DNA from: an uncultured Neomegalonema sp.
GTDB lineage: Bacteria; Pseudomonadota; Alphaproteobacteria; Rhodobacterales; Rhodobacteraceae
Reading direction: 5' to 3'
Assembly (NCBI GenBank): GCA_937995735.1
Contig: CALKIZ010000039.1
Location: 1-37,950, forward strand
Length of the DNA: 37,950 nucleotides
Numbering within the stretch: the first letter of the stretch is position 1; the number at the start of each line of letters is the position of its first letter. Positions 18,111 to 27,689 of this stretch are shown here, in pieces. Under the pieces are notes generated by a model, which had not been told where the DNA came from, made no database searches, and saw nothing but the letters and a program-made list of their open reading frames with translations. Made by a program: the position numbers and the translations under genes.

Positions 18111-18977
18111 ATGCTTTTCGACACTAAAACCGCTTTTCGCTCTCAGAGTAACCGTTCGATTGCTCTGTTCGGAATGTCGGGGGTTGGCAAGACACGTATT
18201 GCCTCGATGGTTCGCGAAGATGGATGGTTCCATTACTCGGTCGATTATCGCATTGGCACACGTTATATGGGCGAGCATATCGTCGACAATTTCAAACGTG
18301 AAGCAATGAAGTCGCCTTTGCTGCGTGAATTACTAATGAGCGACTCGATTTACATTGGCAGCAATATTACTTTTCACAACCTTGCACCGCTTTCGACGTA
18401 TCTCGGTAAACCCGGTAATCCCGAAAAAGGCGGGATTCCATTTGGCGAATACCTTCGCCGGCAATCTGAACACCGTGCGGCAGAAACTGCCGCGATGTTG
18501 GATACGAATGACTTCATCGACCGTGCCAAGCGGGTCTACGGTTATAATCATTTTTTATGCGATACATCCGGTTCTCTATGTGAGGTTGTTGAGCCGAATG
18601 ATCCTGACGATGCGGTTATGAGCGCGTTGTCTGAGAAATCCATGATCCTTTATATTCGTGAGGAAGCGGACCACTCCGATGAATTAGCACGACGCTTTGA
18701 TAGTGATCCAAAACCGATGTATTACAATGCCGGTTTCCTGCAAGGCGTCTGGCATAGGTATCTTTGCGAAGCTGCCGTTGAACCTGATGAAGTCGATCCC
18801 GATGCGTTCATTCGATGGGCATACCGCGAATTGTTGGCATGGCGCGGTCCACGCTATCGTAAGATTGCTGAACGTTGGGGATATACGGCGACAATGGCCG
18901 AAATTACGGCGGTGCGCGACGAAGCAGATTTCCTTGACCTGACAGAAGTGGTGATTGCGCGACGTTTGGCGCAGTAA
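18111..18977 (+). CDS. P-loop ATPase of unknown role
   Basis: The 288-residue protein has one clear motif, the Walker A loop GMSGVGKTRIA (residues 21-31), near the N-terminus. DGWFHYSVDYRIGTRYMGEH follows, which resembles the substrate-binding start of small-molecule kinases. I also see FLCDTSGSLCEVVEPND (about residues 147-163), a possible Walker B-like segment, and the strand MILYIREE. No signal peptide or membrane helix is present, so it should be cytoplasmic. Uncharacterised ATPases of this look occur in alphaproteobacteria. It is 121 bp after carB and 37 bp before the dehydrogenase at 19015, so it may share a transcript with the latter. No specific function is claimed. Confidence 0.75.
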   Translation: MLFDTKTAFRSQSNRSIALFGMSGVGKTRIASMVREDGWFHYSVDYRIGTRYMGEHIVDNFKREAMKSPLLRELLMSDSIYIGSNITFHNLAPLSTYLGKPGNPEKGGIPFGEYLRRQSEHRAAETAAMLDTNDFIDRAKRVYGYNHFLCDTSGSLCEVVEPNDPDDAVMSALSEKSMILYIREEADHSDELARRFDSDPKPMYYNAGFLQGVWHRYLCEAAVEPDEVDPDAFIRWAYRELLAWRGPRYRKIAERWGYTATMAEITAVRDEADFLDLTEVVIARRLAQ

Positions 18978-19014
18978 ATCGAGTGAATTTCATCTCTGGA
19001 ACTCAGAGCATTAT

Positions 19015-20118
19015 ATGACGAACGCAACGGCAAAAATTGCTTCGATCCCCGGCGATGGCATTGGCCCAGATGTGATCGACTCTGCTTTTGCGGTTATGGA
19101 TGCAGCGCGGATCAAGACCGGCGGGTTTGAGATCGAAGTAGATCATATCGACGCAGGCGCTGCGTATTTCGAAAAGACCAAGTTTGACATTGAACCCGGC
19201 GGCGAGGAACGGGCAGGGGAGGCCGATGCTATCTTGCTTGGTGCAATCGGATTACCCTCCATACGGCATGATGACGGGACAGAGATTTCACCGCATTTGC
19301 GCTTGCGGGATCGCTATGGGCTTTATGCAGGAGTCCGGCCTGTAAAGGCTTATCCGAATGCTCCACAGCGGCTTTCTGATCCGAGAGCGGCGACACTCGA
19401 TCTCGTTATTTTGCGCGAGTCTACCGAAGGATTGTTTTTTACGGCTGCTGCAAATGGCGGTGGTGAATTGATCGGTGACGACGAGGCTCGCGATACGATG
19501 CGTATCACGCGCAAAACCACCGAGAAGCTGCACGATTTTGCTTTCAAGCTGGCTCAAAAACGCAAATCGCGCGGCGGAAAAGGGCACGTAACCTGTGTGG
19601 ATAAAGCCAACGTTTTTGTATCCATGGCTTTCTTCCGAAAAATATTTGATGAGCGTCGCAGCGCATTCCCAGACATCGATCATGGATATAACTACGTCGA
19701 TGCAATGGCGCTGGATTTGGTAAGGAAACCTTGGGAGTTTGACGTCCTCGTGATGGAAAACATGTTCGGTGACATTCTGTCTGATCTTGCGGGCGGGTTG
19801 GTCGGCGGCATGGGCATGGCAAGTTGCGGTGAGATTGGTGACAATCACGGCTTATTCCAAGGCGCTCACGGGTCGGCCCCTGACATTATGGGACAAGACA
19901 AAGCTAACCCGCTCGCGGCAATCTTGTCCGGGGCGTTGATGTTGGATTACCTGTCCGAGAAACTTAGCGTTTCTCAGATGGCGGAGGCGGCTCAAGCAAT
20001 TCATACCGCAGTCGATGACGGTTTTCGTGATAACCGACTGCGCCCCATGGAGTTTGGCGGCGATATGGGCACAACAGCCATAACCAACGAGCTTACGACT
20101 ATTCTCAAGGGTATATAA
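19015..20118 (+). CDS. Isopropylmalate/isocitrate dehydrogenase-family enzyme
   Basis: The 367-residue protein belongs to the NAD(P)-dependent beta-decarboxylating hydroxyacid dehydrogenases. It shows ASIPGDGIGPDVI, the catalytic VDKANVFVSM and MENMFGDILSDLAGG metal-site block, and GAHGSAPDIMGQDKANPLAA for cofactor binding. The substrate-deciding loop reads LRESTEGLFF. LeuB normally has ELTGG and tartrate/D-malate dehydrogenases ENTEG, so this is probably not the leucine enzyme. The ATG at 19015 begins the family N-terminus; an in-frame ATG at 18955 lies inside the upstream ATPase gene. No leuC or leuD gene is nearby. It could serve the oxidative cluster that converges on it from 20143 on, but the strand is opposite. 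Confidence 0.88.
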   Translation: MTNATAKIASIPGDGIGPDVIDSAFAVMDAARIKTGGFEIEVDHIDAGAAYFEKTKFDIEPGGEERAGEADAILLGAIGLPSIRHDDGTEISPHLRLRDRYGLYAGVRPVKAYPNAPQRLSDPRAATLDLVILRESTEGLFFTAAANGGGELIGDDEARDTMRITRKTTEKLHDFAFKLAQKRKSRGGKGHVTCVDKANVFVSMAFFRKIFDERRSAFPDIDHGYNYVDAMALDLVRKPWEFDVLVMENMFGDILSDLAGGLVGGMGMASCGEIGDNHGLFQGAHGSAPDIMGQDKANPLAAILSGALMLDYLSEKLSVSQMAEAAQAIHTAVDDGFRDNRLRPMEFGGDMGTTAITNELTTILKGI

Positions 20119-20142: not shown

Positions 20143-21177
20143 TTATTTAAAGGCTGGCATGACCTCATTGATAAAAAGCTGTAGCGAGCGTTTTTGGGCG
20201 TCCATGTCGAGGCCCATGCTGGCGTAGTAGATGTATTCGTCCACGCCGAGGTTCTCGTAAATACGTAGTTTTTCGATCACCGTATCAGGTGAACCAAACA
20301 TGAGATTTTCTTCCAGCATCACGGGGTCGTATTGCTCACGTCCTTCCAATTCGGCGAGCGGGATTTCTTTTGGGAAGCCGTTCTTCACGTCACCAAGATT
20401 GCGGTAGAGATTCTCAAATTGACCAAGCACGCGCGTAATCGCTCCAATCGCCTGATCTCGCCCTGCCGCGTTTTCATACAACGCAGTATGGCGCATCAAG
20501 GCAAAGATAGGCCGGAAATCGCCGCCGAATTTCTCGATGGAGGCTTCGAGGTGGCTTTTATATAGCTCTGCTTCCGCATGAGGGCGGGTGAAGGGCCAAC
20601 ACATCACGTTGGCCTTCGATTTTACCGCATAATCATACGTGATCGGAGAGCGGGCCGCGACCCAGACAGGGACATTTTCTTGCACGGGTTTAGGAACCGA
20701 TGTTGAAGTTGGGAATTGCCAGAACTCGCCATCATGCGCGTAATCACCCGCCCAAAGCGCATGGAGCGCAGGCAGCATTTCCTGCATATAACGCCAACCA
20801 TCGGTTTGCTTGACACCCGGAGCCATTCGGTCGAACTCGCGCTGATACGCACCTGATCCAATGCCAAATTCTAATCGTCCTCCGCTGATGAGGTCGAAGA
20901 ATGCGGCTTCTCCGGCAAGTTTGATCGGATGCCAATAGGCGGCGTTGACCACCGCTGGCCCCATGCGGATGCGGTCTGTTTCACCCGCCCACCATGCGAG
21001 TATAGAAAACGGGTTCGGCGCGATGGTCATTTCGAGCGCGTGATGCTCAGCAGCCCAGACAATATCGAACCCGCCTTGATCCGCCATCTGAACCATATCG
21101 AGAGTATGGCGTGCGACTTTCTCCATCGGAATGGAATCGTCGAGGCGTTCGAGATTGACGGCGAGTTGAAACTTCAT
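20143..21177 (-). CDS. Luciferase-like flavin-dependent monooxygenase
   Basis: The 344-residue protein belongs to the bacterial luciferase-like (LLM) class, which uses reduced FMN (or F420) and oxygen to oxidise small molecules. Visible features are the N-terminal MVQMADQGGFDIVWAAEHHA, APNPFSILAWWAGETDRIRM, DLISGGRLEFGIGSGAY and the late FGSPDTVIEKLRIYENLGVD. It is the last gene of a leftward operon and starts 4 bp inside the Rieske gene's end (ATGA). Reduced flavin could come from the flavin reductase domain encoded in the divergent operon at 24342, as RutF serves RutA. The substrate is unknown. The gene converges with the dehydrogenase ending at 20118, and I see no clear terminator in the 24-bp gap. 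Confidence 0.88.
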   Translation of the reverse strand: MKFQLAVNLERLDDSIPMEKVARHTLDMVQMADQGGFDIVWAAEHHALEMTIAPNPFSILAWWAGETDRIRMGPAVVNAAYWHPIKLAGEAAFFDLISGGRLEFGIGSGAYQREFDRMAPGVKQTDGWRYMQEMLPALHALWAGDYAHDGEFWQFPTSTSVPKPVQENVPVWVAARSPITYDYAVKSKANVMCWPFTRPHAEAELYKSHLEASIEKFGGDFRPIFALMRHTALYENAAGRDQAIGAITRVLGQFENLYRNLGDVKNGFPKEIPLAELEGREQYDPVMLEENLMFGSPDTVIEKLRIYENLGVDEYIYYASMGLDMDAQKRSLQLFINEVMPAFK

Positions 21178-22325
21178 GTGGTGGCCTTTCCGCCGCGCAT
21201 TTGCTCTGCATACCAGCAGGCAAAGGCGGCGACATTTGGTTCGAGATCAGGTTGAAAGCGCCCTTGTCGAGCGTCAGGACAGGACAACCCGCGTTGTTGA
21301 TTGATAAGGGCGGGAATATCTTCGGCAAGAGCTGCATCAAGGCGCTCATAATAAGCGCTAACTCGAGTGTCAAAATCCGGTAGAGCGACTGTTTCCGGTG
21401 GAAAGCAAGCGGTTTGAAAAACCTGACAACGATTTGCCCCGAGCGGATATGCTTCATAAACCCATACCGCATCGGTTCCGGCGGCGAAGGTCATATTCGG
21501 AAAAACCCACGTGTAACGGACACCCGCCGCCTCACGCCCCGTTAGATTTGGCATCGGGGGTAAAGCACGATCCTGTTCGGTTTGTAGCACAGCGCCGGTT
21601 CCCTCCGTGCTGCCAAATTGAGTGGCAAATGCGCCTTTGGCGGAATCCGGTGTATCAGGGCGGTTGTAGATCGCATCAACGGAATCAGGATGAACGAAGG
21701 GTAAGTGGTAATATTCGTTGAAGACCTCGATAAAGGCTTTCCAGTTGCAGTCGACTGTTATCGCTGTCCGCCGTGTCGAGACTAGCGAGTCCATTGGCCA
21801 CGGCGAATGGATGGCGTTGAAATCGCCTAAAGTCTCGTCCAGATCGGGGGCAATGGGATCGAGGCAGATAAAAGCAAAGCCGAGGCGTTCTTCCGCGCGA
21901 TAAGCGATCAGACCATTGTCAGCACGGTTAAAGCCCTGCACATCTTGCATATGTGGAGCAGCGGCTAGTGAACCATCGAGTTTGTAAGCCCATGAATGAA
22001 ACGGACAACGGATACCCCGACAGTTTCCATCACCGTCCAGCAACCTCGCGCCGCGATGACGGCAAGTATTGGCAAAGGCACGCAAGATACCTTCATGATC
22101 GCGCAGTAGAATGATGGATTGTCCAGCAATATCCAGTGCCGCAAAATCTCCCGGCTCCGCCACATGGTCTGCGCGGCCCACACCGATCCAACCTGAGCGG
22201 AATAAAGTGTTTATCTCCGCAGACGCGATACCATCATCCGTGTAGCAGACAGGCGGGATTGACCATCCCTTCTCCTTCGGGGCGACGCAAAGCGATAGCC
22301 AAGAATCAAGCGCGTTCATACTCAA
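21174..22325 (-). CDS. Rieske-type aromatic-ring-hydroxylating/N-demethylating oxygenase, alpha subunit
   Basis: The 383-residue protein has a Rieske [2Fe-2S] site, C88-R-H90 and C107-P-F-H110 (CRHRGARLL ... CPFHSW). It also has a mononuclear iron site with NEYYHLPFVHP (H207, H212) and a probable third ligand Asp in AEDIPAL. The short single-subunit form resembles quaternary-amine demethylases of the GbcA/CntA/stachydrine type as well as other orphan Rieske oxygenases, so ring hydroxylation should not be assumed. No dedicated ferredoxin or reductase gene is adjacent. It overlaps the aldehyde dehydrogenase upstream and the luciferase-like gene downstream by 4 bp each, so all three are translationally coupled. 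Confidence 0.9.
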   Translation of the reverse strand: MSMNALDSWLSLCVAPKEKGWSIPPVCYTDDGIASAEINTLFRSGWIGVGRADHVAEPGDFAALDIAGQSIILLRDHEGILRAFANTCRHRGARLLDGDGNCRGIRCPFHSWAYKLDGSLAAAPHMQDVQGFNRADNGLIAYRAEERLGFAFICLDPIAPDLDETLGDFNAIHSPWPMDSLVSTRRTAITVDCNWKAFIEVFNEYYHLPFVHPDSVDAIYNRPDTPDSAKGAFATQFGSTEGTGAVLQTEQDRALPPMPNLTGREAAGVRYTWVFPNMTFAAGTDAVWVYEAYPLGANRCQVFQTACFPPETVALPDFDTRVSAYYERLDAALAEDIPALINQQRGLSCPDARQGRFQPDLEPNVAAFACWYAEQMRGGKATT

Positions 22326-23803
22326 CGCATCACAAAGGGATTAGCCATTGGCTCGTCGGACGTGTTCATCCAAATCGTCTTAGGGCGGGTGTAGTCATAC
22401 ATTGCCTGAAACCCGCTTTCACGGCCATAACCGGACCCTTTGACACCGCCGAACTCTGCAATCGGCGAGACGACTCGGTAAGTGTTGACCCAGACGATAC
22501 CAGCGCGCACAGCATTTGCCATCCGCAGCGAGCGAGCGCTGTCGCGGGTGAAGATGCCTGCCGCCAATCCGTGTTCTGTATCATTGGCGAGCGCAATGAC
22601 TTCATCCTCGGTTTTGAAACGTTGAACACAAAGGACAGGGCCGAAGAGTTCCGTATCGACAATCCGTAAATCCTGATGCGGGCACGCTAGGATCGTCGGT
22701 TCAAAAAATAACCCATCCATTCCATCGGGGCGCTTGCCACCCGTCAGCACTTCTGCGCCTTCAGAAACAGCATGGTCGATTTCACGTTCGATTGCGTCGC
22801 GCTGCCTCGCCGTGCAGAGCGGCCCCATCTGAGTCTCGTCAGCCAGTGGATCACCAATGCAAATTTCTTTGGCAAGTCGCGTCATGCGGCCCAAAAATTC
22901 ATCGGCAATGTCTTCATGTAAATAAAGGCGCGAACCGGCGACGCAACTTTGACCCGTTGCCCCGAAGATACCGGCAATGGAGGCATTAACAGCGCTCTCG
23001 ATATTGGCATCGTCGAACACAATAAAGGGCGATTTACCACCGAGTTCGAGAGAGACTTCGGCGAAATTATTCTTGGAGTTTTCCAAGACATGCCGCGCCG
23101 CGCCCGGACCACCCGTGAAAGAGATGCGCGCGACCAGCGGATGTGCCGTCAGCACTTTGCCACATGGATCACCGTGGCCTGTGACGATATTGACGACACC
23201 CGGCGGAAAACCGGCTTTCTCGATCAAACGCCCGAAAGCAAGCATGGCGGCGGAGGCGTGCTCGCTGGCCTTTAGGACCACCGTATTTCCGGCGGCAAGC
23301 GCGGGTCCAAGTTTTACAGCGACAAGGAAAAGTTGCGAGTTCCACGGCACAACCGCCGCGACGACGCCCAGTGGTTCACGCTTGGTGAAAACGAACATAT
23401 CAGGCTTGTCGATGGGCAAAGTCTCGCCGGAGATTTTATCGGCACAGCCTGCGTAGAACTGGAAAAATTCAGCGATGTATTTCGCCTGCCATTTCGTTTC
23501 TTTGAGCATCTTACCGGTATCGACGCTCTCTATCCGGCCCAATTCTTCAGATTGATCCGCCAGTAATTCAGCGAGGCGGCGCAGGCATTTCCCGCGTTCA
23601 GTCGGTGTCATGCTTGCCCATGGACCCGTCGTAAAGGCGCGATGAGCAGCCTCTACAGCGCGGTTTACATCTTCGGCAGTGGCTTCCGGAATTTGGCTCC
23701 AAACCTTACCTGTGGTTGGATTGATGCTGTCGAACACTTTTCCATCGGACGCTCCCGTCCAATCACCGTCTATCAGCATTGTGTAATGTTCGATCTCAGC
23801 CAT
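22322..23803 (-). CDS. NAD(P)-dependent aldehyde dehydrogenase
   Basis: The 493-residue enzyme belongs to the ALDH superfamily and should oxidise an aldehyde to its acid. All key residues are visible: N155 in VVPWNSQ, K178 in VVLKASEHAS, E253 in VSLELGGKSP and the nucleophile C287 in GQSCVAGSR. ISFTGGPGAARHV is the cofactor loop; its GGPGAAR differs slightly from the usual GSTxxG. It is the first gene of the leftward operon, with AAGGA in front of the ATG. In context it may process an aldehyde freed by Rieske N-dealkylation or by ring opening. It resembles the betaine/hydroxymuconic semialdehyde group, but the substrate is not readable. Confidence 0.93.
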   Translation of the reverse strand: MAEIEHYTMLIDGDWTGASDGKVFDSINPTTGKVWSQIPEATAEDVNRAVEAAHRAFTTGPWASMTPTERGKCLRRLAELLADQSEELGRIESVDTGKMLKETKWQAKYIAEFFQFYAGCADKISGETLPIDKPDMFVFTKREPLGVVAAVVPWNSQLFLVAVKLGPALAAGNTVVLKASEHASAAMLAFGRLIEKAGFPPGVVNIVTGHGDPCGKVLTAHPLVARISFTGGPGAARHVLENSKNNFAEVSLELGGKSPFIVFDDANIESAVNASIAGIFGATGQSCVAGSRLYLHEDIADEFLGRMTRLAKEICIGDPLADETQMGPLCTARQRDAIEREIDHAVSEGAEVLTGGKRPDGMDGLFFEPTILACPHQDLRIVDTELFGPVLCVQRFKTEDEVIALANDTEHGLAAGIFTRDSARSLRMANAVRAGIVWVNTYRVVSPIAEFGGVKGSGYGRESGFQAMYDYTRPKTIWMNTSDEPMANPFVMR

Positions 23804-23943
23804 GACGGGTCCTTCTTTTGTCGGAATTTATTCTGTTCCTGATTTTAGCGTGGTGTTTGCGATTATCCGACAATTCATGTCGCAAAATACCGAATTCCAT
23901 CGTCTATTCTGTGCATTCATGCGTCAGCTTTGGGAGAAACGCG
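23804..23943. promoter_or_regulatory. Divergent control region of the oxidative gene cluster with two inverted repeats
   Basis: All six cluster genes are read outward from this 140-bp spacer. Two perfect inverted repeats interlock here. TTGTCGGA (23818-23825) is mirrored by TCCGACAA (23866-23873). TTTGCGA (23856-23862) is mirrored by TCGCAAA (23880-23886). Such nested dyads suggest a binding site for a regulator that controls both directions. No regulator gene is adjacent. TATTCT at 23905-23910 could be a -10 box for the rightward operon, but no good -35 pairs with it. Confidence 0.45.
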
Positions 23944-24342
23944 ATGGGTAATAGAAAAACCGTTATCGGAGGGCCGCTGGAAATTGGTGGCCGTGTCCTG
24001 TCGCTGTCGAAAGCCATTCGAGCAGGTGATTTCGTGTTTCTCACGGGACAGATCCCCATGAAAGACGGCGCGCCTCTAACGACTGGAACTATTGAGGATC
24101 AGACTCGAGCCGTACTGGATGACATCACGGTTACATTATCGGAGGCCGGATGCGAGCGGGCCGATGTGATCAAGGCAATGGTTTGGTTGCGCGATAGGGC
24201 CGATTTTCCGGGGTTTAACGCTGTCTATGCCGAATATTTTCCGTCTGAACCTCCTACACGTTCGGCTGTTGTGAGTGACCTTTTGGTTGATTGCCGCGTC
24301 GAAGTCGAAGTCGTTGCTTATCGTCCTGAGAGCGACAACTGA
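23944..24342 (+). CDS. RidA/YjgF-family (RutC-like) protein
   Basis: The 132-residue protein is a RidA-family imine/enamine deaminase or aminoacrylate hydrolase; trimeric in known members. It shows LSLSKAIRAGDFVFLTGQIP, a loop with DDITVTLSEAGCERADVIK, and PTRSAVVSDLLVDCRVEVEV with the conserved Arg and Glu of the active site. The ATG at 23944 has GGGAG 8 bases upstream; the open frame back to 23818 covers the control region and is not used. It is the first gene of the rightward operon, and its stop overlaps the next start by one base (TGATG). In the Rut pathway the RutC member has a matching place, releasing ammonia from an unstable enamine. Confidence 0.9.
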   Translation: MGNRKTVIGGPLEIGGRVLSLSKAIRAGDFVFLTGQIPMKDGAPLTTGTIEDQTRAVLDDITVTLSEAGCERADVIKAMVWLRDRADFPGFNAVYAEYFPSEPPTRSAVVSDLLVDCRVEVEVVAYRPESDN

Positions 24343-26099
24343 TGCGTGGTACAATAGCCGATGGCACGGTTTACGAGACATATGGGGTTGAGGACGGCCC
24401 GGTTGTCGTCCTGATTCACGGCCTTGGACTCAACCGTGAATGCTGGGAATGGACGGTTCCTGCGCTGGCGGATCGCTATCGCATCGTCACCTATGATCTT
24501 TATGGTCATGGCGAGAGCGCCAATCCACCGGAGACGCCTTCGCTTTCTTTGTTCGCGCGTCAGCTTTCAGGTCTGTTGGCATCTTTGGAGATCGAGAAAG
24601 CCGCCATTGTCGGGTTTTCATTGGGTGGAATGATCGCGCGGCGGTTTGCACAGGATTTCCCTTCCCACGCGAGCGCTCTTGCGATTCTACATTCTCCGCA
24701 CCGGCGTAGCTCCGATGCTCAAGCAGCAATCCTCGCCCGTGTGGAGCAAGCCCGTAGTGAAGGCAGTGCTGCGACGGTTGAGGCCGCATTGGAACGTTGG
24801 TTCACGACTGACTATCGCAGAGAAAATCCTGCGATTATGGACAGAGTGCGCGATTGGGTCTTGGCTAATGACATCACTGTCTATCACACGATCTATTCTG
24901 TGCTGGCAGAGGGTGTAGAGGAAATCATCCAACCCGATCCGCCGCTTGCTTTGCCCGTACTGGCGTTGACCGGCGATGAAGATTACGGCAATGGTCCTGA
25001 GATGACGGAGGCAATCGCCGCTGAAGTAGAAGGAGCGGAGACTGTCATTCTGCAGGGGTTAAGGCATATGGCGCTTGCGGAAAATCCCAATGCGGTGAAT
25101 GCGCCGCTCCGCGCTTTTCTGGATCGTCATCATCCGTCAAGCACCGCAACTTTATCCAAGCCGATGTCTGATGCCGACCGCCGTGCATTGCGTGATGCCT
25201 TTGGTTGTTTTGCAACGGGAGTGACGGTTGTTACCACTCGGCAGGAGGACGGAACACCGCGGGGGTTTACAGCCAATTCTTTCACGTCTGTTTCGCTTGA
25301 TCCGCCCATGCTTTTGGTCTGTGTGGCCAAGACTGCGCATAGCTGCCCTGTCTTTACTGAGGCACCGCATTTTGCGGTGAATATTCTGGAGCAGGGACAA
25401 AAAGAACTGTCCGGCATTTTTGCTTCGCGGGTCGCTGATAAGTTCGAACAAACGCAATGGCGATCCGGTATGGCTGAGATGCCGGTCTTTGATGATGCGC
25501 TGGCACATCTCGTTTGCTCACGGGAAAAAGTCATTGATGCGGGTGATCATGTCATTCTATTGGGCCGCGTCATTGATCATACGATAGGGCATGGCCAACC
25601 TCTCGGATATTTTCGTGGGACATATTTCTCTGCCGGCACAGAGCAAGAATTGATCGATGCCGCGTCGCAAGGGGGCGATATCGAGATCGGCGCTTTGATT
25701 GCTTCGGAAGGGTCGCTGTTGCTCGCTGACTCTGATGATGGAGGATTGGAAGTCCCCAAAGCGCCGCATGAAACACCTGACATTGATGTGTTAACGCGCC
25801 GATTGAGGCAAGCTGGTATGAGTGTGGATTTAGATTTTCTTTATGCCGTCTTTCGTGACACTGCGACGGGTCAGCATGGCATTTTTTATCATGGAAGCGC
25901 CGCTGGCGCGTTACCGCAAGGTCATCAGTTTTATCCGCTTGACGATCTGCCTCTAAGCCGGGTTCGGAGTGCTACTGAACGTAGTATGTTGACCCGTTAC
26001 GCCGCTGAACATCGCGAAGGCGCGTTCGGTATTTATCAAGGGGATGAAACACGCGGGACCGTTAATCGCATCGCATCCCGTGAACCATCGACCTATTAG
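24342..26099 (+). CDS. Fusion of alpha/beta hydrolase, flavin reductase and an extra C-terminal domain
   Basis: The 585-residue protein joins activities that are separate proteins in the Rut system. Residues about 1-265 are an alpha/beta hydrolase (RutD-like): IHGLGLNRECW oxyanion loop, nucleophile S93 in GFSLGG, acid D212 or D214 in TGDEDYG and H242 in GLRHMALAENP. Residues about 275-430 are a flavin reductase (RutF/HpaC-like): RDAFGCFATGVTVVTTR, GFTANSFTSVSLDPPMLLVC and YFRGTYFSAG. Residues about 440-585 form a third part I cannot name; EIGALIASEGSLLLADSDDG is loosely Nudix-like but without a Nudix box. The fusion would keep reduced FMN supply and hydrolysis together. There is no sign of a frameshift or internal stop. 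Confidence 0.88.
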   Translation: MRGTIADGTVYETYGVEDGPVVVLIHGLGLNRECWEWTVPALADRYRIVTYDLYGHGESANPPETPSLSLFARQLSGLLASLEIEKAAIVGFSLGGMIARRFAQDFPSHASALAILHSPHRRSSDAQAAILARVEQARSEGSAATVEAALERWFTTDYRRENPAIMDRVRDWVLANDITVYHTIYSVLAEGVEEIIQPDPPLALPVLALTGDEDYGNGPEMTEAIAAEVEGAETVILQGLRHMALAENPNAVNAPLRAFLDRHHPSSTATLSKPMSDADRRALRDAFGCFATGVTVVTTRQEDGTPRGFTANSFTSVSLDPPMLLVCVAKTAHSCPVFTEAPHFAVNILEQGQKELSGIFASRVADKFEQTQWRSGMAEMPVFDDALAHLVCSREKVIDAGDHVILLGRVIDHTIGHGQPLGYFRGTYFSAGTEQELIDAASQGGDIEIGALIASEGSLLLADSDDGGLEVPKAPHETPDIDVLTRRLRQAGMSVDLDFLYAVFRDTATGQHGIFYHGSAAGALPQGHQFYPLDDLPLSRVRSATERSMLTRYAAEHREGAFGIYQGDETRGTVNRIASREPSTY

Positions 26100-26108
26100 G
26101 AGAATCCC

Positions 26109-26711
26109 ATGGAACCTGAACTGCGCAAAATCGTGACCTTCGACGAAGATATTCACCGTGAGGGCGCGAAGGCCGCCAATCCCGCATTGCGCATGATTGG
26201 GGTTGCCGCAGTTGTCAAAAATCCGTGGTACGGGAAAGGTCACGTCGAAGATTTGCAGCCGGATATTCGCCGTCTTGCTCCACCGTTGGGCAAAATGCTG
26301 ACCGAACGTTTGATTGCTTTGGCAGGGTCGGGGGATGCTATCGAAGCCTATGGCAAGGCGTGTATTTCAGGAACGGATTGCGAGATCGAGCACGCCTCCG
26401 CCTTGATCCACACATTGCAATTCGGGAACTTTTACCGCGAAGCCGTGGGTGCGAAAAGCTATCTTGGTTTCACTAATACGCGCGGTCCTGCGAATACGCA
26501 GATACAGATTCCTTTGATGGATAAGCACGACACCGGGCGGCGTTCGCATTACCTGACCGTGCAGTTCTCGATTTATGATGCCCCCGCACATGACGAGTTG
26601 GTAGTTGCTCTTGGCGCAGCGACGGGCGGACGGCCTCACCACCGTATCGGTGATCGTTATTCCGACCTTGCCGCTCTTGGCCATGATCTTGAAAACCCTG
26701 CCGGGGTTTGA
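26109..26711 (+). CDS. DUF1185 'amino acid synthesis' family protein
   Basis: The 200-residue protein looks like the DUF1185 family, annotated as amino acid synthesis proteins but without an established function. Recognisable parts are RKIVTFDEDIHREGAK, AAVVKNPWYG, GKACISGTDCEIEHASALIH and GGRPHHRIGD. No signal or membrane segment is seen. It follows the fusion gene by 9 bp in the same operon, with AGGAG before the ATG. The family often sits beside luciferase-like oxygenases and flavin reductases, so a step in the same pathway, perhaps ring hydrolysis or amide cleavage, is a fair inference. The gene converges on the SGNH gene ending at 26721. Confidence 0.75.
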   Translation: MEPELRKIVTFDEDIHREGAKAANPALRMIGVAAVVKNPWYGKGHVEDLQPDIRRLAPPLGKMLTERLIALAGSGDAIEAYGKACISGTDCEIEHASALIHTLQFGNFYREAVGAKSYLGFTNTRGPANTQIQIPLMDKHDTGRRSHYLTVQFSIYDAPAHDELVVALGAATGGRPHHRIGDRYSDLAALGHDLENPAGV

Positions 26712-26720
26712 AGGGGATCG

Positions 26721-27689
26721 TTAGGGAAAGAAGCCTGCTATTTCTTCTGAATGAGTGGGCGGACGTTTCATCTCTGTCCAATAAGCCGGTAAAAGCCCCT
26801 GTAGATCGGTCTCGTTGACCTGCAGAATGACGAGATCAGCGCGGGTGTCCTGTGTCGCTTTTTTGAGGATTTCATGTTGACGAAGGATAGAGATGCCCCC
26901 AACGCCCGCATTAAATACCTGATACTCTGGCAAACGACTTTGTAATAACGCGGGCCATGTATCCTGATCGGCGAGCGATGTTCCGTAGGTGAAAGAGTCG
27001 CCGATGAGCAGGATTGACGGAGCCGTCTCGCTTTCCGTCTGTATTCCTGTTGCACGGAATCCGAATGCGTCGCTGGTAAAGCGGAAAGCCAGACCCTTCG
27101 CTGTTTCGCGAATTTCTGATAGGTTTTTGACCCACGGTCCAACAAGGGATTTTTCTGCGGAATTGTTGCCTTCACAGGAATCCGTTCCAGTAGTTCTGAC
27201 ATGCTCTGCAACCACATTGGCGGTAAGGTGAGCAAGCAACCGGGACGGATGAGTATCACCCGGCGTCAAATATAATAATTCAGGGCCGAAATTCTGTTTA
27301 ACCGGTTCCATATCAATGAATGGAATGTCGGCGTGTTCCGCGAGGCCGGCATAAAAGTCCCGTGCAACCTCAAAAGTCGGATCTGTAGGAATATAGAGCA
27401 TTGCCACATTACAAGCCCGCTCTCGCGCCGTCTGCATAAAGGCATCAAATTCCGCCGTGTAGCTTTTTTCCAAAACCTGCCGCAAAGCAGTAGAGCGCGG
27501 TTCGTAAACTGCACTCATTGCAATTACACGTGGGTCCGGTTTATGCATCTGGCTCTGCACACGATCCGCGAGCCATGCCAGACCAAATCCTCTCTCGCTG
27601 CCACGTTGAAAATTGAGATACCCCGCACCGATCTCGGCAGCGAAAACGAGTCCCAGACAAATACCAGAGATTTTGAGCAGTTTTGCCAT
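26721..27689 (-). CDS. AlgX/AlgJ-type SGNH O-acetyltransferase-like protein
   Basis: The 322-residue protein has an N-terminal hydrophobic signal or anchor (about residues 3-20) and a catalytic set in the order D145-T-H147 then G230-D231-S232 (LLIGDSFTYG), with NAGVGG and QVNETD after it. In ordinary SGNH esterases the Ser block comes before Asp-His; Asp-x-His first is the arrangement of AlgX and AlgJ, which acetylate exopolysaccharide in the periplasm. It starts 2 bp after the membrane acyltransferase-3 gene, the kind of partner that passes acetyl groups across the membrane. I infer O-acetylation of a surface glycan. Which glycan is not visible, since no polysaccharide genes are adjacent. 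Confidence 0.78.
   Translation of the reverse strand: MAKLLKISGICLGLVFAAEIGAGYLNFQRGSERGFGLAWLADRVQSQMHKPDPRVIAMSAVYEPRSTALRQVLEKSYTAEFDAFMQTARERACNVAMLYIPTDPTFEVARDFYAGLAEHADIPFIDMEPVKQNFGPELLYLTPGDTHPSRLLAHLTANVVAEHVRTTGTDSCEGNNSAEKSLVGPWVKNLSEIRETAKGLAFRFTSDAFGFRATGIQTESETAPSILLIGDSFTYGTSLADQDTWPALLQSRLPEYQVFNAGVGGISILRQHEILKKATQDTRADLVILQVNETDLQGLLPAYWTEMKRPPTHSEEIAGFFP

Follow-up and report, generated by a model that had tools for sequence, protein, structure and literature searches.

We found that six genes at positions 20143-26711 of a contig from an uncultured Neomegalonema form a conserved operon, more than a chance neighbourhood, and that this cluster is a variant of the trigonelline-type (tgn) ring-cleavage system. 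The contig, called the window below, is a single stretch of 37950 bases from a 3.69 Mb genome that is 99.5% complete. By analogy with the tgn system, the cluster seems likely on balance to encode a Tgn-like pathway for some N-methylpyridinium-type compound; among the candidate substrates we tentatively place homarine (N-methylpicolinate) first. The cluster is laid out as follows.

20143..21177, minus strand: luciferase-like FMNH2-dependent monooxygenase (LLM), TgnB-type, the proposed ring-cleaving oxygenase (PF00296 Bac_luciferase, E 4e-53)
21174..22325, minus strand: Rieske non-haem iron oxygenase, an optional member (PF00355 Rieske and PF00848 Ring_hydroxyl_A)
22322..23803, minus strand: aldehyde dehydrogenase (ALDH), TgnC-type (PF00171 Aldedh, E 2.3e-164)
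23804..23943, no strand: divergent spacer of 140 bp common to both arms, from the ALDH start to the RidA ATG
23868..23882, no strand: palindrome CGACA-N5-TGTCG, a candidate operator and the sole exact match in the window
23944..24342, plus strand: RidA family enamine/imine deaminase (PF01042 Ribonuc_L-PSP)
24342..26099, plus strand: alpha/beta hydrolase (about residues 1-265) fused to a flavin reductase (about 275-430) and a C-terminal domain (about 440-585) (PF00561, PF01613)
26109..26711, plus strand: DUF1185 / AA_synth protein, TgnF-type (PF06684, E 2.9e-68)

All six open reading frames (ORFs) are intact and each scores above the Pfam cut-off for its family, which bears out the six genes on two divergent strands, and the families, given by an earlier sequence-only reading of this DNA. 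The 4-bp overlaps that it saw are real (21174-21177 between LLM and Rieske, 22322-22325 between Rieske and ALDH), as is the length of the shared spacer. The RidA ORF opens at a TTG at 23818, and residue 1 of the Parasedimentitalea RidA aligns at the ATG at 23944. In the fused protein, the reductase part carries a C-terminal domain of about 145 residues that is also present in the tgn-type reductase; the predicted structure of the reductase is only fair (mean pLDDT 75.3, pTM 0.52; best fold match 3rh7, TM 0.44) and adds nothing beyond the sequence. The sequence-only reading mentioned neither this domain nor the palindrome in the spacer. The DUF1185 protein has the solved relatives 2qtp and 3byq.

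The gene order is strongly conserved. Of 150 relatives that a DUF1185 scan confirmed, the best 80 (L008-L087) are the basis of all counts out of 60 or 80 given here; some loci are present more than once (L008/L161/L179, L028/L117 and L129/L171). The LLM, ALDH, hydrolase and DUF1185 genes occur together in 60 of the 80 loci, and in all 60 their order and divergent strands are identical to those of the window. The neighbourhood singled out by the sequence-only reading is thus conserved, the opposite of the outcome that would have counted against it. We retain from that reading a conserved catabolic operon whose substrate is probably a nitrogen compound, with ring opening as a possible task of the flavin enzyme and the products left to RidA and the hydrolase; we set aside the kinship with the Rut pathway and the Rieske-centred design. 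Further genes among the 60 loci are RidA (48), the flavin reductase (42), a GlxA-type regulator (32) and the Rieske oxygenase (3), the counts of outer genes here and below being lower bounds because flank lengths differ between loci. Sixteen of the remaining 20 loci end at a contig edge, at or no more than 358 bases from the first matched gene. Another three (L037, L045 and L056, 1-3450) have ALDH, hydrolase, a CoA-transferase-reductase and DUF1185, with no LLM in the 3.4 kb beyond ALDH, and L050 has DUF1185 only.

According to their record labels, the relatives are mostly Rhodobacterales and other Alphaproteobacteria (Roseobacters, Planktomarina), many of them marine, with one member of the Gammaproteobacteria. 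The nearest named ones are metagenome bins of uncultured Neomegalonema, one of which (L008) also keeps the genes flanking the cluster; these flanking genes (18111-20118 before and 26721-27689 after) match L008 alone among L008-L087, and were therefore left out of the cluster. The LLM was detected at E 1e-90 or better in 27 of 390 genomes sampled evenly across the order and, at E 1e-60 or better, in 7 of 14 genomes of the genus, one of these at 37% identity only.

The kinship with the tgn-type system comes from comparison with an Acinetobacter cluster containing GntR, DUF1185, hydrolase, reductase, LLM, ALDH, an NCS1-type permease, an unidentified ORF and a succinate-semialdehyde dehydrogenase (SSADH). 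This record is unannotated: its genes were assigned by similarity, GntR and the permease by Pfam, and SSADH by NCBIfam above the subfamily cut-off. Identity to the window proteins is 63% for DUF1185, 55% for ALDH (490 columns) and 38% for LLM (344 residues). The reductase with its C-terminal domain is 40% identical to the TgnA-type protein over 314 columns (50% in the reductase domain, 31% in the C-terminal domain), and is also matched by the solved Sinorhizobium meliloti protein SMa0793 (3rh7; residues 9-311 of 315, E 5.5e-70). The hydrolase is the weakest of the five, with 27% over 245 columns to the TgnD-type protein (109 bits). The plasmid collection yielded six loci (Acinetobacter, Sinorhizobium, Leisingera, Burkholderia, Rhizobium and Mesorhizobium) that share GntR, DUF1185, hydrolase, reductase, LLM and ALDH, such a core lying in S. 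meliloti pSymA, Rhizobium etli p42c, Burkholderia multivorans, Leisingera and Mesorhizobium amorphae; SSADH is within reach in three of the six. In M. amorphae a single 1788-base gene encodes hydrolase and reductase, a fusion as in the window. ALDH and DUF1185, regarded by the sequence-only reading as additions to a Rut-like set, are therefore ordinary members of a tgn-type cluster.

In the tgn pathway, which Perchat and colleagues are said to have described in 2018, a two-component flavin oxygenase reportedly opens the pyridinium ring at its C5-C6 bond, the aldehyde is then oxidised, and a hydrolase finally releases methylamine, formate, CO2 and succinate semialdehyde. SSADH (TgnE) is the last trigonelline enzyme. 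From the computed protein identities, kinship, gene order and optional Rieske gene we infer a set of reactions and a substrate for the window cluster. The flavin-reductase domain would make FMNH2, with which the LLM and O2 would break the ring C-C bond adjoining the nitrogen, giving an N-formyl-N-methyl enamine with a free aldehyde. ALDH would convert this aldehyde to the acid, the alpha/beta hydrolase would take off the formyl group, and RidA would hydrolyse the enamine or imine, leading from homarine to 2-oxoglutarate and methylamine; alternatively, the imine may be reduced to N-methylglutamate. The DUF1185 protein may act as a helper, as is said of TgnF, and the Rieske protein, where kept, may widen the substrate range, for example by N-demethylation. 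Overall, the ring of an N-methylpyridinium carboxylate would be opened and the product hydrolysed to a central metabolite, methylamine and formate.

Several observations suggest that this carboxylate differs from trigonelline. No TgnE-like SSADH at 50% identity or more was found in any of the 60 loci or in the window cluster; this fits a 2-carboxylate better than trigonelline, because a chain opened from such a ring would lead to 2-oxoglutarate or N-methylglutamate, with no need for SSADH. The LLM and hydrolase, the two proteins expected to contact the substrate, diverge most from their tgn-type counterparts and the proteins of the shared chemistry diverge least, which is the pattern that an isomeric substrate would lead one to expect. 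Homarine, a metabolite of phytoplankton, is a positional isomer of trigonelline, and Ruegeria pomeroyi draws it down within hours, according to passages of PMC12817926. In the one R. pomeroyi genome that we searched, that of strain SZCCDBG043, the single LLM at E 1e-20 or better lies inside this cluster. That the operon is instead a second pathway for trigonelline itself would agree with the homology of five of its proteins to the tgn-type cluster. We nevertheless find this quite improbable, as the LLM and hydrolase reach only 38% and 27% identity, SSADH is missing and RidA is added; moreover, a nearer tgn-type cluster is present on a marine Leisingera plasmid, even though its ALDH match is in two pieces and no SSADH lies within reach there.

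A number of points weigh against a homarine-type route. The most serious is that the crotonobetainyl-CoA-hydratase-like and carnitine-dehydrogenase-like genes found beside the core in most relatives are not needed in a plain homarine route. RidA has no match in 12 of the 60 loci and the reductase none in 18; with RidA, the reductase or LLM missing at some loci, not every step is always encoded there. We take the name Mgd to refer to N-methylglutamate. The window cluster has no gene that would obviously make N-methylglutamate. The published homarine route, in the passages of PMC13390433, involves Mgd. The strain that drew down homarine is not stated in the PMC12817926 passages, and the genome we searched is that of SZCCDBG043. 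The Acinetobacter and rhizobial clusters are taken as the tgn operon because their composition fits the pathway reportedly described by Perchat et al. 2018 and because DUF1185 is linked to TgnF in passages of PMC7913881. The same passages describe DUF1185 as a homologue of TgnF, the stimulator of TgnE-dependent succinate-semialdehyde oxidation in trigonelline breakdown, and report that this helper effect could not be shown for the authors' own DUF1185 protein. Passages of PMC2954203 propose that the family has a function in the metabolism of amino acids, and for both reasons the helper role of DUF1185 is tentative.

The carnitine-type genes call for a closer look. Among the 60 loci, 52 have a hydratase-like gene, 49 a dehydrogenase-like gene, 34 a coenzyme A (CoA)-transferase and 20 a beta-keto acid cleavage enzyme (BKACE). 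At the two loci tested for each, the best NCBIfam models were crotonobetainyl-CoA hydratase (296.8 and 310.5 bits) and L-carnitine dehydrogenase (311.7 and 288.3 bits). Acyl-CoA dehydrogenase and BKACE genes also stand beside the core in some loci, an acetoacetate-CoA ligase does so in Aminobacter, and R. pomeroyi and Parasedimentitalea carry a fusion of a family III CoA-transferase with the reductase. L122 (4141-5661) holds a remnant of such a transferase (about 116 of 366 positions, about a third) fused to the flavin reductase, with no hydratase, dehydrogenase or RidA match within reach. These neighbours would suit a route in which a C4 amino or ammonio acid (gamma-butyrobetaine-like, or 4-(N-methylamido)butenoate derived from a ring) is made ready by the module; this acid would then be CoA-activated, hydrated, oxidised and cleaved by BKACE to a betaine or sarcosine unit and acetoacetate. 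We consider such a carnitine-like route unlikely: the hydratase and dehydrogenase scores fall below the equivalog cut-offs (500 and 414), eight of the 60 loci have no hydratase match (three of them since the contig ends at LLM), and the kinship with the tgn-type LLM is left unexplained. The window organism also argues against it. No CoA-module match lies beside the core in the window, and the nearest homologues in its genome, on other contigs, are distant (dehydrogenase 39%, CoA-transferase 40%, BKACE 55%; the hydratase was not searched genome-wide). This genome has a separate carnitine-like cluster on another contig (C21, L126), where a 518-residue ORF contains a dehydrogenase 38-39% identical to the marine one and acyl-CoA dehydrogenase, CoA-transferase, hydratase and ATP-binding cassette (ABC) ATPase are also matched. 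In SZCCDBG043, the 15 kb beyond the regulator contain other ABC transporters and no BKACE match. The R. pomeroyi carnitine transporter cntTUVW corresponds to SPO2995-2998 in passages of PMC10130141, and its link to the cluster could not be mapped. It is conceivable, although we give it little credence, that marine Alphaproteobacteria joined a tgn-type ring-cleaving module to carnitine-type CoA enzymes, the CoA-transferase being fused to the flavin reductase, in an undescribed route that splits an opened N-methyl heterocycle as a carnitine analogue into a methylated glycine unit and acetoacetate, and that the window organism uses a shorter form of this route to which the Rieske enzyme was added.

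We return to the Tgn-like pathway and its optional member. The Rieske protein has both its C-x-H...C-x2-H Rieske motif and its NEYYHxxxxH iron motif intact. The sequence-only reading had set it against GbcA and CntA. We rejected equivalence to either: the GbcA model scores 141.7 of the 670 bits required, and the carnitine monooxygenase CntA (6y9c), the nearest solved chain by sequence, is distant (E 1.5e-38, 136 bits). The other six Rieske proteins of the genome are 27-31% identical to it. Members at 53-68% occur at eight places besides the window: five lie between ALDH and LLM (L016, L028, L058, L171 and L148), one (L169) is beside a 69% ALDH without LLM, and two (L168, L191) are elsewhere. 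The second histidine of the iron motif is a tyrosine in L028, and in L148 the acidic position ahead of the first histidine holds Asp instead of Glu. As a separate observation, several matches to Rieske oxygenases, 35-44% identical to that of the window, follow one another in L192 (5400-14900), beside a CoA-transferase match.

The Rieske gene is an optional part of the operon. It is present in 3 of the 60 comparable loci and, within 1.5 kb on each side, in 3 of 30 LLM loci of the order sample (L127, L129, L148); 5 of 385 genomes of the class contain it at E 1e-90 or better, and at 1e-100 it is found in 3 of 101 relatives, including 0 of 13 congeners. In L008 (3951-4300; the contig is also L161 and L179), whose LLM is 99% alike, Rieske ends of 72 and 84 bases are left and the middle is gone, with the other operon genes intact. 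Most simply, the gene would have been present before the split and lost in L008. In two congeners (L162, L163), the aligned ALDH and LLM ends are 13 bases apart.

This distribution bears on the proposal that the cluster is a Rut-like system rebuilt around a Rieske oxygenase that demethylates or hydroxylates the substrate first, which we regard as very improbable. It has in its favour that the same broad functional classes are present as in the Rut pathway, and that in six loci, which fall on different branches of the LLM tree, the Rieske gene occupies the same position, between ALDH and LLM. However, 57 of the 60 loci lack a Rieske match of this family, which makes it hardly plausible that this enzyme carries out a first step on which the pathway depends, and L008 keeps two gene ends only in an otherwise intact operon. 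Rut orthology was not found either. Set against Escherichia coli RutA, as the sequence-only reading had intended, the LLM gives a partial match (38.9 bits across 152 residues), while its full-length kin is the tgn-type LLM (258 bits across the full 344 residues with that of Acinetobacter). Direct alignment of the window RidA, hydrolase and reductase with RutC, RutD and RutF yields 47, 60 and 86 bits, and the corresponding models stay far below their cut-offs (52.4 of 169.1, 64.4 of 238.5 and 87.1 of 254.75 bits). The RutA model TIGR03612 has no match anywhere in the genome; in a control search it matched 7 of 14 named genomes, in two of them above the cut-off. On these grounds we rejected Rut kinship. 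The absence of RutB and RutE from the cluster, also noted earlier, is confirmed among the nine window proteins compared, with no match to RutB and 14 residues only to RutE; the genome outside these was not searched for the two. In the LLM tree the RutA branch is extremely long and drew a long-branch warning from the program, so neither the root nor the join of the tgn-type and Agrobacterium-type branches is trusted.

The spacer between the two arms could be compared in 73 of 89 loci (relatives and window), where it is 130-213 bp long. Allowing one mismatch, the palindrome has three matches in the window, which is not above chance. A relaxed form occurs in 18 of the 73 spacers (17 of 72 without the doubled contig), as against 0.9% after shuffling in two-base blocks. 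This enrichment is only suggestive of an operator, because related loci share history. Next to the cluster in the window we recognised no gene for a regulator.

Two other cluster types contain related LLMs. The first, in the same order of bacteria, consists of ALDH, LLM (62-66%), DUF1185 (50-55%) and hydrolase with a LysR regulator (L137-L141, L143-L151, L154, L155, L170 and L172). In L170 and L172 a thiamine-diphosphate enzyme comes next, and L172 has a TauD-type dioxygenase as well. This type coexists with the operon described here in some genomes (G134, G110 and G255), so the substrates of the two should differ. The other type (L109, L108, L123, L174) has an LLM 45-49% identical to that of the window and, in Agrobacterium C58 and Azospirillum (46-49% there), adjoins a ProXVW-type glycine betaine/proline transporter.

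Methylated nitrogen heterocycles, homarine among them, occur as metabolites of phytoplankton, and names are only now being given to the enzymes by which their nitrogen re-enters the food web. The widespread operon can be recognised by five genes and the chemistry of its relative has been worked out, which makes its substrate directly testable in a model marine bacterium; assigning that substrate would help give a function to DUF1185 and to the CoA-transferase-reductase fusion.

Compared with known systems, the cluster resembles the Rut pyrimidine pathway at the superfamily level only (LLM, RidA, hydrolase and reductase); no orthologue was found, and none of the nine window proteins compared corresponds to RutB or RutE. 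CntA and GbcA are the best PDB and NCBIfam relatives of the Rieske protein by sequence, yet this protein scores far below the GbcA cut-off and has eight relatives at 53-68%. The Acinetobacter tgn operon is much closer: LLM oxygenase, reductase with C-terminal domain, ALDH, alpha/beta hydrolase and DUF1185 are clustered in both, whereas the window has a divergent layout without SSADH, an added RidA, a fused hydrolase-reductase, an optional Rieske gene, and a strongly diverged LLM and hydrolase. The gene set was not found described in the titles, abstract starts and passages (few of them from subscription papers) of the literature on it, homarine, trigonelline, DUF1185 and R. pomeroyi carnitine. 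Ferrer-Gonzalez and colleagues reportedly described in 2026 (Nat Microbiol) a hom operon that consists of five genes plus a regulator, N-methylglutamate being one product. Because homarine catabolism was published in that year, homarine may already be the known substrate of this core. The homarine catabolism of Ferrer-Gonzalez et al. 2026, as reported, resembles the system proposed here in being found in marine bacteria, and an N-methylpyridinium carboxylate is also the substrate that we favour.

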